DNA of 40,681 bases from a virus, in the IMG/VR virus record IMGVR_UViG_3300043100_000037, positions 1 through 40,681 of that record, one strand, 5' to 3'. The notes beneath the pieces are model-generated. The model had not been told where the DNA came from. It saw only the letters and a program-made list of their open reading frames with translations, and searched no databases. Both the position numbers and the translations under genes were made by a program. This document shows positions 3,609 to 32,030 of this stretch, one piece after another (position 1 is the stretch's first letter; each line of letters begins with the position of its first letter).

Positions 3609-5117
3609 ATGTCCCGTTTCGGTTTTGTCGGTCCCAGCTACCTGAGCACCTCGCCCATCGCGGACGCGGAGGAGTGCATCAACTTCTACCCGGAAGCGAT
3701 CGAAGGCCAGGGGAAGACTGCGTATGCGCTTTACCCGACGCCTGGGCTGAAGCCGGTCTCGAAATTAGTGAACGAGACCGCCATCTGGGGACAGAAGTGG
3801 GTGCCCGCGGCGGGAAGATATTTTGCCGGGGGTTCGCATCTCTACGAACTGGACCAGAATTTCACGATCACCGACCGCGGCGCACTCACCGCACCCACTG
3901 GGCCGATTACCATCATCTGCAACCAGACTCAGCTCCTGATCCTCTCCGCGGGCTTGTTGTGGGTGTTCACGCTCGCGACCAACACCTTGGCCGCGGTGGT
4001 GAGTCCGCCGTTTCCCGCAGTAGCTGCGATCGGTTTCAGTGACGGCTTCGCAGTCGCCGTGCAAAGCTCGCCGGCGGACATCGCGCTTTCTTCGATCGGA
4101 GATTTCTCCACCTGGAACGCGATCAATACCTCGTCGATTTCGCTCTTTCCCGACAACATCGTTTCGATGGTGGTCGACCACCGCGAGCTGGTGCTCTTCG
4201 GCAACACCAAAAGCGTGGTCTACGCCAACGCCGGCGCCGCCATTTTTCCCTTTCAGCCGGTGCCGGGGGCTTTCATCGAACAGGGTGCGGATTCACTCTC
4301 CGGGCAGGTCCAGCTCGACAACTCCGTCATGTGGACGTCGTTCGATGAGCGCGGCCACCTGGTCGCCTACCGATCGCAGGGCTATGTGGGACAGAGGATC
4401 TCGAACCACGCCGTCGAACAGCAGTGGCAAAGCTATGCGACGACGTCAGATCTGATCTCCTACAGCTTGCAGATGAACGGCCACCCCTGGTGGCACCTCT
4501 ACTTCCCCACCGCCGGCGTCTCCTGGCGTTACGACGTCGCGACCGGAATGTGGCATAAGGCTCTGGGCTGGCTGAATGGCGCCTACACCGCCCACAACAC
4601 GCAAAACCATGCCTTCGCCTTCGGCAAGCACCTGATGGGCGACTGGGCTTCAGGAACCATCTACCAGATGGCGATGCCGAGCTACAACGGCGCGTCGTGG
4701 GATTTTTGCAGCGATGGCGCGAATCCCATCCGCCGGCTGCGCCAGAGCCCTTACGTGCAGACCGAGGGTGTGCGCGTCTACCACAACCGGTTGCAATTCG
4801 ATCTGGAAACCGGCCTCGGCCCGATCCCGCCGCTCCGAGACGCAATGGGCAACCCGCGCGATCCCCAGATGATGGTTTCCTGGTCGAACGATGGCGCGAA
4901 AACTTTTTGTCCGAACAAAATCCTGAATTGCGGCCAGGGCGGCAACTACTCAAAGCGCGTCTTCCTCAACCGCCTGGGAAGCACTTTGCATGGACGGGTG
5001 TACCGCGCGGTGATGACGGATCCGATCCCGTGGCGGTTTGCTGACGCCTGGCTCGACGCGGATCCGGGATTCAAACCAACACAGCGACTGGCCGACCAGT
5101 TGAGGGCGAGAGCCTAA
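3609..5117 (+). CDS. P22 gp10-like tail hub / packaged-DNA stabilisation protein
   Basis: The 502-residue product matches the P22 gp10 family (packaged DNA stabilisation; P22 gp10 is about 470 residues), which forms the hexameric tail hub below gp4. Family hallmarks are the N-terminus with INFYPEAIE and PTPGL, and the C-terminal MMVSWSNDGAKTF, NYSKRVFLNRLG and FRIAV-like YRAVMTDPIPW. The start is ATG 3609, 3 bases after the small upstream ORF. The next gene starts immediately after the stop. Confidence 0.9.
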   Translation: MSRFGFVGPSYLSTSPIADAEECINFYPEAIEGQGKTAYALYPTPGLKPVSKLVNETAIWGQKWVPAAGRYFAGGSHLYELDQNFTITDRGALTAPTGPITIICNQTQLLILSAGLLWVFTLATNTLAAVVSPPFPAVAAIGFSDGFAVAVQSSPADIALSSIGDFSTWNAINTSSISLFPDNIVSMVVDHRELVLFGNTKSVVYANAGAAIFPFQPVPGAFIEQGADSLSGQVQLDNSVMWTSFDERGHLVAYRSQGYVGQRISNHAVEQQWQSYATTSDLISYSLQMNGHPWWHLYFPTAGVSWRYDVATGMWHKALGWLNGAYTAHNTQNHAFAFGKHLMGDWASGTIYQMAMPSYNGASWDFCSDGANPIRRLRQSPYVQTEGVRVYHNRLQFDLETGLGPIPPLRDAMGNPRDPQMMVSWSNDGAKTFCPNKILNCGQGGNYSKRVFLNRLGSTLHGRVYRAVMTDPIPWRFADAWLDADPGFKPTQRLADQLRARA

Positions 5118-5489
5118 ATGCCCGTCACTGCCATCACGATTAAGCCGCCGTCGCAGGTGCAGCGGCCGATTGTGGATAAGGCCGGGATCATGCTGCGTGA
5201 GTTTGTGACTTACCTGCTCTCACTCACCAACACTTTTCAGCTTTTCACCGCCGACACCACCGCCGGCAACTTCACGCAACCGTTGCCACTCGCGGCCAGC
5301 TTACCCAACCAGGAGGTGTTCGCCATCAAGATTTCAGCCGACGGCAACACCTTCTCACTCTCTGCGCAAGGCTCAGACAAGATCAACAAACAGGGCGCGT
5401 GGGGAGCTTCTGCGTTGGCGGTGGGCACAGCGCAGGGCGCAGCGGCGAGACTGAAGAGTGACGGGAACTCGAACTGGTACGTGATATGA
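5118..5489 (+). CDS. Hypothetical tail-associated protein (gp26 position)
   Basis: The 123-residue product is unrecognised. It sits where P22 encodes the tail needle gp26 but is about half that length and lacks an evident long coiled coil. The C-terminal half is beta-rich and ends in SDGNSNWYVI, a pattern seen at the end of small fibre or tail-tip domains. ATG 5118 abuts the stop of the gp10-like gene, and its own stop overlaps the next start (ATGA at 5486). A minor tail or plug protein is the most reasonable guess. Confidence 0.7.
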   Translation: MPVTAITIKPPSQVQRPIVDKAGIMLREFVTYLLSLTNTFQLFTADTTAGNFTQPLPLAASLPNQEVFAIKISADGNTFSLSAQGSDKINKQGAWGASALAVGTAQGAAARLKSDGNSNWYVI

Positions 5490-5746
5490 CCTCAGAAGAA
5501 CAGATCCTAGAAATGTTGCGCGACTACGCTGGCGGCGAGGCGCTAACTCCGGATACCAGGCTCGACTCCCTGGCTCTTGATTCGCTCGAATTCCTCGACA
5601 TCCTACAGCAGGTCGAGGACCGCTTCAGCTTCACCATCGACAAACAAGTTGTTCCCCACATCAACACCATCCGTGATTTGTGCCAGCTCGCGCTCAGTGC
5701 CGACGGCCAGTTTCACCCGGTCTATGAATCTCGTCTATCAAGTTGA
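5486..5746 (+). CDS. Acyl carrier protein
   Basis: The 86-residue product has the length and layout of a discrete acyl carrier protein. Helix I is at about 3-16, then a loop, the DSL phosphopantetheine site at Asp32-Ser33-Leu34 (LALDSLEFLDILQQVEDRF), an acidic helix II, and a last helix near 58-70. Such proteins carry acyl chains on 4'-phosphopantetheine at the serine after modification by a host phosphopantetheinyl transferase. It is translationally coupled on both sides: ATGA overlap with the preceding gene and a 23-base overlap with the GNAT gene downstream. An acyl carrier protein inside a phage tail operon is very unusual. The residues after about 72 are an extra tail. Confidence 0.88.
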   Translation: MTSEEQILEMLRDYAGGEALTPDTRLDSLALDSLEFLDILQQVEDRFSFTIDKQVVPHINTIRDLCQLALSADGQFHPVYESRLSS

Positions 5747-6185
5747 GCCGCTGAGCGCCCTCGAACGCGACATCTGGCCGCTGCTTCCGCTGCACTGGGA
5801 AGAACTGGCGCTCGATAAATCGCAGATGAAGGTGGACGTGTTCGTCTCCCGCTACAAGGAGTTCGAGCAGAATGGAAACCTGCACATCGTCACCATCCGC
5901 GAAGAAGGCCGACTGGTGGGCTACTTCATTTTGATGCTGGGCGAACATCTGCACTATCACAACGCCGGCCGCATGGCCTATACCGACGTCTACTTCATCC
6001 ACCCGGAATTCCGCAGGGGGGGCGCCGGCGTGAAGCTCTTCACTGAAGTGGAACGTACCTTGCGCGATCGCGGCGTGGTAAAGGCCTATTTCACCTGCAA
6101 GGTTCACCAGGATCACTCCGCGATCTTCGAGAAGTTGGGCTGGAACTGGACCGACAAAGTCTTCACGAAAGTGTTTTCCAACTAA
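5724..6185 (+). CDS. GNAT-family acyltransferase partnered with the acyl carrier protein
   Basis: The 153-residue product has the GNAT fold signature. The beta-strand TDVYFIHPEFRRGGAGVKLF contains the R-x-x-G-x-G cofactor loop (RRGGAG), and FEKLGWNW near the C-terminus matches motif B. GNATs usually acetylate amines from acetyl-CoA, but some (FeeM/LuxI-like and HlyC-like acyltransferases) take acyl chains from acyl-ACP. The overlapping acyl carrier gene makes that donor plausible here; this is inference. The start is set at ATG 5724, which leaves a 23-base overlap. Its position between tail and ejection genes suggests a virion or host-envelope substrate. Confidence 0.85.
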   Translation: MNLVYQVEPLSALERDIWPLLPLHWEELALDKSQMKVDVFVSRYKEFEQNGNLHIVTIREEGRLVGYFILMLGEHLHYHNAGRMAYTDVYFIHPEFRRGGAGVKLFTEVERTLRDRGVVKAYFTCKVHQDHSAIFEKLGWNWTDKVFTKVFSN

Positions 6186-6190
6186 CCGCC

Positions 6191-7660
6191 ATGTCACTGG
6201 GAATCGGAACCGCGCTAGGAATTGGAGCTGGTGTCAGCGGAGCCGCGAGTATCGGCGCAGCGGCGATCGGGTCGAGTGCAGCCGGGGCCGCCGCCAATAC
6301 GCAAGCGGGCGCAGCCGAAATCGGGGCGCAGGACCAGCTCCAGCTTGGCGAAGAAAATCTCGGACTGCAATCCCAGATTTTCAACACCGAGCAGTCGAAC
6401 GAGAAGCCGTTCCTCGAGGCCGGCCAGAACGCGATCACGCGCATCAACTCGCTGATGGGCCAGAACCCGCTTTCCTCGGCCCCCGCCGCGAGCACTCCAC
6501 CGATTTCCCCGCCCAGCCTCTCCGGGGTTTCAACGACCATCCCAGGAGCGCCTTCGGTCGCGCCGATCGCCCGCGCCAGGGGTGGCCCGGTGGTTCCCTT
6601 CTACATGCAGGCAGCCACCCGCTACAAAGTCGGGGAAAAAGGCCCGGAAGAACTCGACATGTACCCGAACGGAACCGGGGTGGTCATTCCCCACGATCAA
6701 CTCCTCAAGCGCGGCCGCTACGCCAGCCTGATCCCGCGCGCGATGGGTGGCCCGGTAGGCAGCGAGAGTCCAGCTCCACAGCAACCGTGGAACCAGCCAG
6801 GATGGGGAGCGCCGGCACCAGTCACGGGGCCGATCTCGGGTGGCCCGAGCACGCTGCCGCCGAATCTTTACGGCAAAACTGATCCCGGAGGACCGCCGGT
6901 TGGCACGCAACCCAACCAGCCGCTTCCTGCGCCGGCGAATGGCAGCGCACCTGGTGCACCTCCTGGCGCGTCTATGGGGAATCCCTGGGGCAGCGATCCG
7001 AACGCGACCGCCGATCAAAACAATCCCCTGGTCTCGGGCGGTTCTGCCACGCCCACGCAGAACGTTCCCTTCTCTGCCTGGACGCAGCAATTCACTGCAC
7101 CGACGGCCGCGCAAGCCGCCGCCACTCCTGGCTACCAGTTCGCCTTACAGCAAGGCGAGAACGCGATTACCGACAACGCCTCCGCTCTCGGCACCACCGG
7201 AAGCGGGGCGACGGGTGCGGCTCTCGATCAGTACGCGAACAACATGGCGTCGACGAACTATCAGCAGGTCTACAACAACGCCCTGCAGCAGTATGACCAG
7301 AATTACAACATTTTCTCGAACAACCAGGCGAACCAGTGGAACCGCCTAGCTTCAACGGCTGGCATCGGGCAGACCAGCGCGGGGCAGCTCACTTCCGCCG
7401 GCGGAAATTTTGGAAACACTTCGAGCACCGCACTGATGAACGCCGGAAATTCGATCAACAACAGTTTGAACAATGAAGGCGCGGCGCTCGGATCGGGCTA
7501 CGTGGGCTCGGCGAATGCGTGGGGTGGGGCGCTTGGAAACATCGGAAATTCGGCGATGATGCCGCTCTACATGCAGATGCTCAACCAGCAAGGAATTCCG
7601 GGCGCTCCTGCGACGACCGGCGACCCCAGCGTTGATTTCCCCGGATACGGTACATACTAA
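6191..7660 (+). CDS. DNA ejection / internal virion protein with GEKGPE motif
   Basis: The 489-residue product occupies the P22 gp7 position. Residues 1-35 are an Ala/Gly-rich hydrophobic segment that could insert into a membrane. Around residues 140-170 there is a tape-measure-like motif (YKVGEKGPEELDMYPNG then VVIPHDQL). The middle is Pro/Gly-rich and disordered. The C-terminal half is Asn/Gln/Ala-rich (QQYDQNYNIFSNNQANQWN, then AGIGQTSAGQLT), a pattern common in podovirus ejection proteins. It probably leaves the capsid with the DNA to help it cross the envelope. Its TAA overlaps the next ATG (TAATG). Confidence 0.75.
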   Translation: MSLGIGTALGIGAGVSGAASIGAAAIGSSAAGAAANTQAGAAEIGAQDQLQLGEENLGLQSQIFNTEQSNEKPFLEAGQNAITRINSLMGQNPLSSAPAASTPPISPPSLSGVSTTIPGAPSVAPIARARGGPVVPFYMQAATRYKVGEKGPEELDMYPNGTGVVIPHDQLLKRGRYASLIPRAMGGPVGSESPAPQQPWNQPGWGAPAPVTGPISGGPSTLPPNLYGKTDPGGPPVGTQPNQPLPAPANGSAPGAPPGASMGNPWGSDPNATADQNNPLVSGGSATPTQNVPFSAWTQQFTAPTAAQAAATPGYQFALQQGENAITDNASALGTTGSGATGAALDQYANNMASTNYQQVYNNALQQYDQNYNIFSNNQANQWNRLASTAGIGQTSAGQLTSAGGNFGNTSSTALMNAGNSINNSLNNEGAALGSGYVGSANAWGGALGNIGNSAMMPLYMQMLNQQGIPGAPATTGDPSVDFPGYGTY

Positions 7661-19371: not shown

Positions 19372-20358
19372 ATGGCAACAGCCACAGCATACCGCAACTT
19401 GCCGGAGTCGGAAAGTGGAAAATTGTCTCCGCTCGCCCTCGAAAGAATCGAGGCCTCGAATCTCAAGCCCGGCGTTGCGAGAACCCTCCGCTACCTCGTC
19501 ATCCGCAGCCAGTACGGCCCCGATCTCTGGGCTCCCACTTTCAAAGTAAGCGTCGATGCGGGCTTTCACTACCGCACCGTGCAGCGCCACATCGACAAAC
19601 TGGAGCGGCTGAAAGTTTTGAAGTTGAAGCACTCGGCCAACACCCACGTCAACGGAAAGATTCGCCGCTCGGCAACCTACGTGTTACACCCGGAGTCGGC
19701 GAAGCACCTGACACCGCGCCAGAATTTCGAGCAGTGGAAAAAGTGCAACGGGCGCGAGACTCCGCTGCGCTTCCGTCCGCAGGCAGCCGCCCCGATCACC
19801 CCGATTGCCGCGCCCACAGCCGATCAACGGCCTCACTTCCCGAGCGACGACGTGAAATCGCGCAAACTCACGCGCGATGAAAAATCTGCCCTGGTGCGCC
19901 GCGTAGTCTCTCTCACCAGGGTAGCTCCAACTCAATCGCAGCCCGTTCCCCCGCCCGAAGTCGAGTCCGAGTCCAACTGGTCGCGCGTCCTGAAAGTGCT
20001 GGAACACAAAATCAACCGGCACTCGTTTGAAACCTGGATGCGGCCCACCCGCGGCCACCACGAAGTCGGAGGCGTTCTCTACGTCTCGGTTCCGACGCCG
20101 GACTTCCTGCACATCGGCGACAAGCACAAACTTCTGCTCGCCGACGCCCTCCGTGAATTGAGGATGCCCTACAGCGCCGTCCAGTTCATCGCGCCGGAAC
20201 AGGTTAAGGCTCAGCCCGCGATGAGCAAACGGGCCGCGCTCGCGCAAGCCTGCCAAGAGTTGAGCACCCCACAGCGCCGCATTTCGATCGAGGACGGAAT
20301 TGTCGCGTTGCGGCTTGCGGGGTACTGGAATTTCGAGGACGCGGACAAGGGGCCGTGA
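19372..20358 (+). CDS. Putative replication initiator: helix-turn-helix plus DnaA domain I-like fold
   Basis: The product is 328 residues, starting at ATG 19372 after AAGAGG. Residues about 30-105 look like a winged-helix DNA-binding domain (FKVSVDAGFHYRTVQRHIDK followed by a beta wing). A Pro-rich linker follows. Residues about 203-275 resemble the DnaA N-terminal domain (WSRVLKVLEHKINRHSFETW then GVLYVSVPTPDFL), used by DnaA for self-assembly and helicase loading. No AAA+ domain is present. With iterons upstream and no phage polymerase or helicase in the genome, it probably recruits the host replisome. This role is inferred. Confidence 0.75.
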   Translation: MATATAYRNLPESESGKLSPLALERIEASNLKPGVARTLRYLVIRSQYGPDLWAPTFKVSVDAGFHYRTVQRHIDKLERLKVLKLKHSANTHVNGKIRRSATYVLHPESAKHLTPRQNFEQWKKCNGRETPLRFRPQAAAPITPIAAPTADQRPHFPSDDVKSRKLTRDEKSALVRRVVSLTRVAPTQSQPVPPPEVESESNWSRVLKVLEHKINRHSFETWMRPTRGHHEVGGVLYVSVPTPDFLHIGDKHKLLLADALRELRMPYSAVQFIAPEQVKAQPAMSKRAALAQACQELSTPQRRISIEDGIVALRLAGYWNFEDADKGP

Positions 20359-22906: not shown

Positions 22907-24898
22907 ATGAAAGCTGTCGTCGCTTCGTCGCTCGTGTTTCTGCTTCTCTCCGTCGCCTCCGCGCAGGACCTCGTCTCCTCCGCGCTCCGCGTCTCCCTGA
23001 ACTTGAACGGCACCTGGCAGTACGTTCTCAATCAACCGCAGTCTTCGATTCCCACCGCCGGCTGGCAGCCGATGCGCGTGCCCTCAGCGCCATACATCGA
23101 CGGCACCAGCTCCGTCTGGTACGAAGCTCCGCTCAACATTCGGCCGAACTGGATCTCCGCCGGCCGGCGATTCTTTTTGGAGCTTGAGAAGTGCGGCCAC
23201 TACTGCGCCGTCTACGTGAACGGCTCTTTCGCCGGCGATCACTATGGCCAGTTCTCACCCTACGAAGCCGAGATCACTCCGTTCGTCGTCGCCGGCGCGA
23301 ACGAAATCGAGATCTACGCGCACATCGCCGACGACACCTACACTCGTCGTGGGGCGACCCTCGATCAATCGAAATGCCCTCCGGCGAATCCGAACTGTCT
23401 CGCGAATTCCTACCGGCCATCTTCGATCACCGACGTCCAGCGCGACTGGGTGGGCATCATGGGCGACGTCACCTTCTCCTGGCGCGGATCTGCGAACGAA
23501 TACATTTCCGACGTCCAGGTCATCACCAGTTTCCAGAACGGCACACTCACTGCGAACGTTACGGCCGTCAACGCCGGAGCCGCGGCCACCGTGAGCGCCT
23601 CAGTGATGGATGGATCGACCGACGTGCTCGATCTTCCCGCGGTGCCGATCGTGAATGGATCCGCGCAGCTTACGGCGCCCTGGGCGAATGCCATTCTCTG
23701 GCAGCCGGGAAACCCGAAACTCTACCAGCTGCACACCTTCTTGACCGATGGCCAGCTCGCCGACGAACGCTACGATCGTTTCGGTTTCCGTGAAGTCTGG
23801 GTCGAAGGAAAAACAATTCTGCTGAACGGGATCCCGCTCTGGATGACGGGCGACTACGAAGTCAAATTCTCGCCCACTCGCCTTTTGAGCGATCGCCGGC
23901 CGCTCGCGATGCTGTTCCACATCCAGCAGCAATCGGGCTTGACGGCCGCGGAATTCCATTGGGACGATGCCGGCCGGGAGTTTCTCGATCTCGCGGACGA
24001 AATGGGGATCCTGGTCCTCGGCGTTTTTTATTGCAATGGCCCCGACGTCACCCAGGCCCAGGTCGACAACCAGGCCGACTGGCTCGCCTGGATGCAGGCA
24101 ACGGCCACCGAGTGGGCACAAGCTGAGCGGAACCACCCCTCGATCGTGCTCTGGCGCCCGATGGACGTTGTGCCTCCAGGATCCGGACACCAGGCCACAG
24201 TTTTTCCCGCGATCGCCGCGGCGGTGCACCTGGTCGACACTACGCGGCCGATCGCCGATGGCAGCGACGTCGACACCTGGGCGCAGAGTCTCGTCGATCC
24301 GAACGATCCCACCGAGTGCGACGACGGATCCGCCTTCGCCCAGAAGCTCGCTGGTGAAACCAAGCCGCTGCTGATCAAAGAGCTGTACGGTTTTGGACTT
24401 CCCTGCGCCCCAGCCACCATCAAGACGCTTTACAACACCGCCTGGATGGGCGGCGGCGCCGGCATGATCGTGCAGCAGCTCGGGCTGTTTGGCACACCAC
24501 CCTTCACGCCCACCTGGTTCTCTCAAAGCGGAATTGGAAACCGAGCGACAGCCGCCGGCGACATGCCGGACTGGATCACCGAGCAGTGGACGGCGACAAA
24601 TTGGAGCCAGGAATTCGCCGCGCTCTACGCCGCGGATCCGGGTCTCGGTTTGCCGAACACCACCCCACTCGACGGCGAATATCAGGCCGCAGATTTCCCT
24701 CTTCCCTTTTCAAGTGAGCAGCTCGCGGTGTTTCTCGTGCCGCCGGCACGCACGGGAATCCCGGTGGGTGTGATCGCATCCGGCGGATCTGTAGATCTCT
24801 TCACCGAGCAAGCTGGGGAGAATACGCTGAGCTACTGGAACGGCGCCCAGGACGTTGAGCAGTCGGTAATCGCGCCGGCGCCGGGGCCACTCAAGTGA
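22907..24898 (+). CDS. Secreted GH2-like glycoside hydrolase homologue, acid/base residue missing
   Basis: The product is 663 residues. The signal peptide is MKAVVASSLVFLLLSVASAQ. A GH2 sugar-binding domain (LNLNGTWQYVL; AVYVNGSFAGDHYGQFSPYE) spans about 30-150, an Ig-like domain about 195-285, and a TIM-barrel-like domain follows (FGFREVWVEGKTILLNGIPL; REFLDLADEMGILVLG). In active GH2 enzymes NHPS...W is followed by GNE; here it reads NHPSIVLWRPMDV, with Val421 where the catalytic acid/base Glu belongs. The nucleophile-type Glu492 in KPLLIKELYG is kept. The protein may be inactive or use another mechanism. AAAGGGG lies before the start. A secreted sugar-active protein on a small phage genome is unusual. 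Confidence 0.75.
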   Translation: MKAVVASSLVFLLLSVASAQDLVSSALRVSLNLNGTWQYVLNQPQSSIPTAGWQPMRVPSAPYIDGTSSVWYEAPLNIRPNWISAGRRFFLELEKCGHYCAVYVNGSFAGDHYGQFSPYEAEITPFVVAGANEIEIYAHIADDTYTRRGATLDQSKCPPANPNCLANSYRPSSITDVQRDWVGIMGDVTFSWRGSANEYISDVQVITSFQNGTLTANVTAVNAGAAATVSASVMDGSTDVLDLPAVPIVNGSAQLTAPWANAILWQPGNPKLYQLHTFLTDGQLADERYDRFGFREVWVEGKTILLNGIPLWMTGDYEVKFSPTRLLSDRRPLAMLFHIQQQSGLTAAEFHWDDAGREFLDLADEMGILVLGVFYCNGPDVTQAQVDNQADWLAWMQATATEWAQAERNHPSIVLWRPMDVVPPGSGHQATVFPAIAAAVHLVDTTRPIADGSDVDTWAQSLVDPNDPTECDDGSAFAQKLAGETKPLLIKELYGFGLPCAPATIKTLYNTAWMGGGAGMIVQQLGLFGTPPFTPTWFSQSGIGNRATAAGDMPDWITEQWTATNWSQEFAALYAADPGLGLPNTTPLDGEYQAADFPLPFSSEQLAVFLVPPARTGIPVGVIASGGSVDLFTEQAGENTLSYWNGAQDVEQSVIAPAPGPLK

Positions 24899-31472: not shown

Positions 31473-31506
31473 TTTGATTGTTTTTGATTTCTGATGGGAA
31501 AGCAAA
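31473..31506. repeat. Recombinase-associated site 1
   Basis: TTTGATT (31473-31479) and TTTGATTT (31483-31490) are direct copies. The second is mirrored by AAAGCAAA (31499-31506; 7 of 8 complementary) across an 8-base spacer CTGATGGG, which contains the recombinase ATG. The layout of short inverted arms around 8 bases resembles a tyrosine-recombinase core site. Confidence 0.5.
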
Positions 31507-32030
31507 GCCTCGATCGGGAGCAAATCCTCGCGCTGCTCGGCGCCGCGAAAGCCAAGCGGGAGCGCGACTACCTGATGATCTGGCTGGCCTTCTGCCACGG
31601 ACTGAGAGCGTCGGAAGTGGTTGCACTGACAAGAAATAACTTCGACGGCGAGCACATCACCGTGCAGCGGCTGAAGGGATCTCTGAAGACAACCCAGCGC
31701 CTGGTCGAGCACGCGGATCCGCTCCTGAACGGCCGAAAAACCCTGTTTGATTTCCTTTGCTTATTCAGGGGAAATCAAAGACTGTTCCCGATCACCCGCG
31801 AGTGGTTCTGGCGCCTGGTCCAGGAGTACGGGAAAGCCGCCGGGATCCCCAAACACCTCCGCCACCCGCATGTGCTGAAGCACTCGATCGCCATGCAAAC
31901 CATTGAGCAGGCGGGAATTCAGAACGTGCGCCAGCATCTCGGTCACAAATCGATTTCTTCGACCGGCGAATACTTGAAGGTCACTGACGCCGCCGCCACC
32001 GCCGCCGTCCAGGGTGCTCTCGCTGTTTGA
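31494..32030 (+). CDS. Minimal tyrosine recombinase (catalytic domain only)
   Basis: The product is 178 residues, close to FimB/FimE size and far shorter than arm-type phage integrases (about 330-400). Active-site residues visible are Arg38 (CHGLRASE), a Lys near 61-64, His126-V-L-Lys129, His151 (LGHKS) and Tyr160 (GEYLK). The second arginine of the H-x-x-R motif is replaced by lysine. No core-binding or arm-binding domain precedes it. The start ATG 31494 has no ribosome-binding site and lies inside the spacer of repeat site 1. It may integrate the phage, invert DNA, or resolve genomes. Confidence 0.8.
   Translation: MGKQSLDREQILALLGAAKAKRERDYLMIWLAFCHGLRASEVVALTRNNFDGEHITVQRLKGSLKTTQRLVEHADPLLNGRKTLFDFLCLFRGNQRLFPITREWFWRLVQEYGKAAGIPKHLRHPHVLKHSIAMQTIEQAGIQNVRQHLGHKSISSTGEYLKVTDAAATAAVQGALAV
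31746..31779. repeat. Recombinase-associated site 2 (inside the gene)
   Basis: TTTGATTTCC (31746-31755) and GGAAATCAAA (31770-31779) are perfect 10-bp inverted arms around 14 bases, within the recombinase coding sequence. The spacer is longer than in the other two sites. Confidence 0.45.

Follow-up and report, generated by a model that had tools for sequence, protein, structure and literature searches.

An acyl carrier protein gene coupled to a GNAT gene between the tail and ejection genes of uncultivated short-tailed phages

GNAT-fold enzymes that use acyl-ACP as donor include HlyC-type enzymes, LuxI and FeeM. In phages, GNATs and acyl carrier proteins (ACPs) are each in print, separately. 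The GNAT of cobaviruses adjoins internal virion proteins and has been proposed as the counterpart of T7 gp13 (PMC6775973). The gene for gp13 lies between the tail tube gene 12 and the internal virion gene 14, a position like that of the GNAT described here. Phage ACPs have been described as auxiliary metabolic genes (PMC8224337, PMC11705849, PMC5463345), and three roseophage ACPs are accompanied by fabG and fabF. As far as the excerpts of these papers go, the auxiliary-gene ACPs show neither a GNAT partner nor a tail or ejection setting, unlike the ACP of this study. Among bacteria, SbzC and SbzI of SB-203208 biosynthesis are GNAT N-acyltransferases fed by stand-alone carriers, and the same paper cites FeeM as a GNAT-fold enzyme supplied by an ACP (PMC6331615). 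No report of an ACP-GNAT pair in phages was found in the open-access literature. An earlier note on this DNA was aware of no described phage system of this kind; this holds for the pair, which is apparently new, but not for its two halves.

The window analysed here, meaning the whole stretch of DNA, is a virus record of 40,681 bp with a 142-bp direct terminal repeat, and would fit a complete genome that is circularly permuted or circularised. The genes of interest are listed in Table 1. The earlier note had placed them in a P22-like operon, and this setting was recovered: a phrog_578 head-closure (Hc3) gene lies upstream, a phrog_598 DNA ejection gene lies downstream, and the genome also encodes a P22-type portal, a large terminase and a major head protein. 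Both junctions that the note had described were likewise confirmed in the sequence. The ACP start codon sits in an ATGA that overlaps the TGA stop of the upstream small tail gene, and the ACP and GNAT genes share 23 bases. The small tail protein itself had no family match among Pfam and PHROG profiles.

Table 1. Features of the tail-ejection region of the window. Positions are those of the whole stretch; residue numbers refer to the encoded protein.
Feature	Positions	Strand	Basis
Head-closure Hc3 / P22 gp10-like tail protein gene	3609..5117	+	phrog_578, E 5e-78
Small tail protein gene preceding the ACP gene	5118..5489	+	ORF and sequence
Acyl carrier protein (ACP) gene, 86 aa	5486..5746	+	PF00550, E 5e-9; AF2 model; Foldseek
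Ser33 codon in D-S-L-E-F, predicted phosphopantetheine site	5582..5584	+	Invariant in 16/16 homologues; start of helix II (model)
ACP/GNAT gene overlap, 23 nt	5724..5746	+	Sequence
GNAT-fold transferase gene, 153 aa	5724..6185	+	PF00583, E 6e-11; phrog_1249, E 1e-12; AF2; Foldseek
R97-R-G-G-A-G102 loop (R-x-x-G-x-G; position of the CoA/pantetheine pyrophosphate loop)	6012..6029	+	Sequence
DNA ejection protein gene, N-terminus MSLGIG..., candidate acceptor (inferred)	6191..7660	+	phrog_598, E 4e-18

Elsewhere in the window, positions 22907-24898 encode a glycoside hydrolase family 2 protein of 663 aa whose N-terminus has a signal-like segment; this is an unusual cargo for a phage. A 178-aa tyrosine integrase-type protein and a DnaA N-terminal-domain protein are encoded at 31494-32030 and 19372-20358, respectively. 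Judging from these last two sequences, the phage may be temperate.

By family match and predicted fold, the 86-residue protein is a true stand-alone acyl carrier protein. Its score against PF00550 (36.7 bits) exceeds the curated cut-off of 20.8, and it also matches the PHROG family annotated 'acyl carrier protein' (phrog_5934, E 1e-5). In the AF2 model (pLDDT 82), helix II spans residues 33-47 and begins at Ser33, the serine that had been singled out from the DSL motif, and the best Foldseek matches in the PDB are acyl carrier proteins. Fold prediction, Pfam and Foldseek thus all agree with the original assignment. A profile of the 16-member ACP family described below matched the Aquifex acyl carrier protein in the PDB (8.9e-14), and PF00550 was matched by 16/16 members, with E-values up to 0.1. 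D32-S33-L34, G17, L29 and T61 are invariant across all 16, while the residues around D-S-L vary. The ACPs reported as auxiliary metabolic genes (phrog_5934; Rhodobacteraceae prophages, Alteromonas phage R22Y and Erythrobacter phage R6L) have the same stand-alone fold and phosphopantetheine serine.

The downstream gene had been read as a GNAT, and both its PF00583 match and the predicted fold (AF2 pLDDT 85) agree. By profile match it is a member of the podoviral GNAT family phrog_1249. Its PDB fold neighbours, among the Foldseek matches listed, are small GNAT acetyltransferases, and its viral neighbours include the GNATs of phages VpV262 and CRP-4. The earlier note had also drawn a comparison with HlyC, LuxI and FeeM. 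This kinship is unsupported: no match to any of the three was found in Pfam, NCBIfam, PDB sequence or the top 50 fold hits, and the GNAT instead resembles a small acetyltransferase. N-myristoyltransferase (NMT) identity was discarded as well, since the Pfam hit (E 0.07) was far under the cut-off and came from a single member. The R-x-x-G-x-G loop is intact in the window, as had been noted, but is not conserved throughout the relatives that carry the pair. R97, G99 and G102 are kept in these relatives, and the loop is one residue shorter in 8/14, so the motif is not a defining trait.

If FeeM with its carrier, LuxI and HlyC-type enzymes are set aside for want of a family or fold match, SbzC and SbzI would, by analogy, be the better precedent. 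They are small GNATs with carrier-borne acyl or aminoacyl donors, as is proposed here for the phage enzyme. They differ in serving antibiotic biosynthesis in bacteria, where the pathway has its own adenylating enzymes and the acceptors are small molecules, and a close sequence relation to the phage GNAT is not established.

To ask whether related phages carry the same gene pair was a test set beforehand, and the pair was found in 15 further diverged viral contigs (L026, L035-L039, L044-L049, L051, L053 and L055), giving 16 loci with the window. At every one the ACP gene directly precedes the GNAT gene. The ACPs of the 15 contigs are 58-79 aa long. The two genes overlap by 4-23 nt in 14/16 loci; the overlap is 0 nt in L037, and L046 has a 4-nt gap that is as uncertain as its start codon, which was chosen by script. 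Single-protein scans of viral contigs with the window ACP or GNAT returned no relatives. These were reached first through a 40%-identical Hc3 (L026) and then by scans with two-sequence GNAT and ACP alignments. Relatives identified by MCP had no GNAT or ACP match. Two scans of bacterial genomes with GNAT alignments, a method that relies on short conserved peptides, returned no bacterial or prophage relative. All pair-bearing phages are short-tailed, uncultivated and from environmental DNA. In the relatives checked, Hc3 lies on one side of the pair and a phrog_598 ejection protein follows the GNAT. It should also be noted that Hc3 is 776-792 aa long in L038, L039 and L055, compared to 477-502 aa in most relatives; the additional sequence in L038 is internal, as if a domain had been inserted into this tail component.

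This conservation bears on whether the ACP gene could be auxiliary, unrelated to the GNAT and its neighbour by accident. Isolated phage ACPs do exist elsewhere, as in Vibrio phage 249E41-1, and ACP alleles recombine separately (see below). However, order and coupling are kept at 16/16 diverged loci, which makes a chance neighbourhood very unlikely, and a query with either protein returns the other: ACP-led scans gave GNAT-bearing loci (L053, L055) and GNAT-led scans gave ACP-bearing loci (L044-L051). We therefore regard an accidental association as already highly improbable.

The GNAT has relatives in sequenced phages, where it usually lies between tail or head-closure genes and internal virion genes. 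The phrog_1249 GNATs of Zobellviridae and Pseudomonas phage PfAn1 belong to the same family and mostly occupy the same position between tail/head-closure and ejection genes as the window GNAT. Bbp24 of BPP-1 is a distant relative, and the cobavirus GNAT is alike by position. In BPP-1 and two spring-water podoviruses the gene lies near the terminase instead. A PF00550 search of six of these phage records gave no matches, and annotation places no ACP beside the GNAT in the remaining sequenced phages that have it. Many podoviruses thus keep the GNAT by their ejection genes with no detected ACP, suggesting that its basic role needs none.

The wide distribution of the ACP-less GNAT beside ejection genes favours an alternative in which the ACP, added in one lineage, is a partner but no donor. 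The GNAT would then act as an ordinary acetyl-CoA enzyme or, where T7 has gp13, as a non-catalytic assembly factor. The ACP itself would be a structural stabiliser, like mitochondrial ACP with LYR proteins. The gp13 equivalence proposed by the cobavirus authors (PMC6775973) and the acetyltransferases among the PDB neighbours of the GNAT point the same way. Equivalence to gp13 by sequence was rejected, as the relation is undetectable: the GNAT has no profile similarity to gp13 (phrog_308), and hhalign with a single gp13 sequence gave a probability of 0.1. The D-S invariant in 16/16 ACPs also argues for phosphopantetheine use, although structural ACPs are modified too. Overall, we consider a non-donor ACP unlikely, if a serious possibility.

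The GNATs that do have an ACP appear to form one group with its own sequence marks, though with modest branch support. A tree of 26 GNATs places all 14 sequences that come with an ACP on one side of a single branch (support 64/86, which is modest), and none of 500 label shuffles gave a value as low. As marks, HLHY is followed by an additional residue, position 79 is basic (14/14) and position 120 is K/R; these are absent from most ACP-less relatives, and the phrog_1249 podoviral GNATs without an ACP lack most of them. Acidic ACP surfaces are commonly bound by basic patches.

The ACP gene has a history of its own. The ACPs of L038 and L048 share only 60% identity, with a near-saturated dS of about 2.3, whereas identity is 87-94% for their tail, GNAT and ejection proteins, at dS values of 0.44-0.61. 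Between L036 and L037, identity is 57% for the ACP, 72% for the GNAT and 98% for Hc3. This excess divergence suggests that ACP alleles have been replaced by recombination more than neighbouring genes. In L038, L048, L049, L036 and L037, the much closer flanking genes make the ACP gene look like a spot of allele exchange. Because the ACP allele can be swapped between close relatives whose GNATs remain about 94% identical, the two proteins are not tightly matched as partners. In the two comparisons with unsaturated dS (L038/L039 and L044/L045), ACP dN/dS was about 0.15-0.19 over a small sample of 62-76 codons, which points to purifying selection and a gene that is kept functional.

Rapid exchange of ACP alleles would suit a host-facing specificity, as expected if the pair made a small diffusible or membrane product (an N-acyl amino acid, aminolipid or similar) that acts on the host envelope or signalling in the manner of FeeM or LuxI. 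FeeM, a GNAT-fold enzyme, is ACP-fed according to the paper that cites it (PMC6331615). However, the phage GNAT has no FeeM or LuxI family match, and the virion is the likelier destination given that the pair is placed in a morphogenesis operon and that GNATs of this family are widely linked to ejection genes. A small product therefore seems improbable to us.

The presence of the pair suggests that a carrier-borne chemical group is attached to a part of the virus itself or to a host molecule. We favour, with a probability of roughly 0.4, a late, carrier-fed N-acyltransferase module that probably acts on a virion (ejection) protein. The simplest reading of a dedicated carrier, encoded by a gene coupled to that of the GNAT, is that it serves as the donor, and a virion protein is the first acceptor to consider because this GNAT family is linked to ejection genes. 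In favour of this reading are the invariant D-S-L, the conserved pairing, the marks shared by ACP-bearing GNATs, the purifying selection on the ACP and the precedent of SbzC and SbzI. By established ACP biology, a host phosphopantetheinyl transferase would modify Ser33 and so give the holo form of the phage ACP. Host enzymes might then supply the carrier with its cargo, an acyl or related group, which the GNAT would move from the carrier onto an amine, as suggested by gene coupling and family precedent. In the weakest step, the acceptor would be a virion component of the same operon, the favoured target being the N-terminus or a lysine of the downstream ejection protein, which must enter the host envelope. 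Neither a phosphopantetheinyl transferase (PF01648) nor an AMP-binding enzyme (PF00501) was found in the eight phage records searched; activation of the ACP and loading of the carrier would accordingly both fall to the host. Against a donor role for the ACP, the nearest solved folds of the GNAT are acetyl-CoA acetyltransferases and not ACP-using acyltransferases; the loose matching of ACP and GNAT alleles and the many podoviruses with an ACP-less GNAT also weigh against it.

Gene pairing would suit either direction of transfer. The ACP could itself be the acceptor, with the GNAT transferring an acyl group from CoA to the carrier phosphopantetheine or otherwise modifying the ACP; diversion of host fatty-acid synthesis is one conceivable purpose. 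Carrier loading by GNAT-like domains has a precedent in the CurA loading module. However, the phage genomes, as far as annotated, revealed no protein that would make use of a loaded carrier downstream, and the CoA pyrophosphate-binding loop is eroded in 8/14 pair members. Transfer to the carrier is, in our judgement, decidedly improbable.

Returning to transfer from the carrier to a virion protein, position 2 of the ejection proteins encoded after the GNAT is Gly or Ser in the loci read, which represent few lineages, and the N-terminus otherwise has no strict consensus. These residues are compatible with N-terminal acylation after Met removal, though unspecific. An MGxxx motif of the kind seen in N-myristoylation was considered for the ejection protein and rejected as too weak, since only G/S at position 2 recurs and in few lineages. 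A bolder form of the proposal, which we hold to be doubtful, is that a carrier-dependent phage system acylates or lipidates its own ejection protein for envelope insertion at DNA delivery, after a single acquisition of a dedicated ACP by a podoviral GNAT lineage that is older.

GNAT-like genes adjoin the ejection genes of many short-tailed phages, where their role is unassigned, and the carrier-bearing lineage offers a handle on both the chemistry and the target. Acylation of a virion protein, if it occurs, would mean that a virus encodes a protein-acylation system complete with a carrier, and would be relevant to the passage of ejection proteins into or across bacterial membranes.
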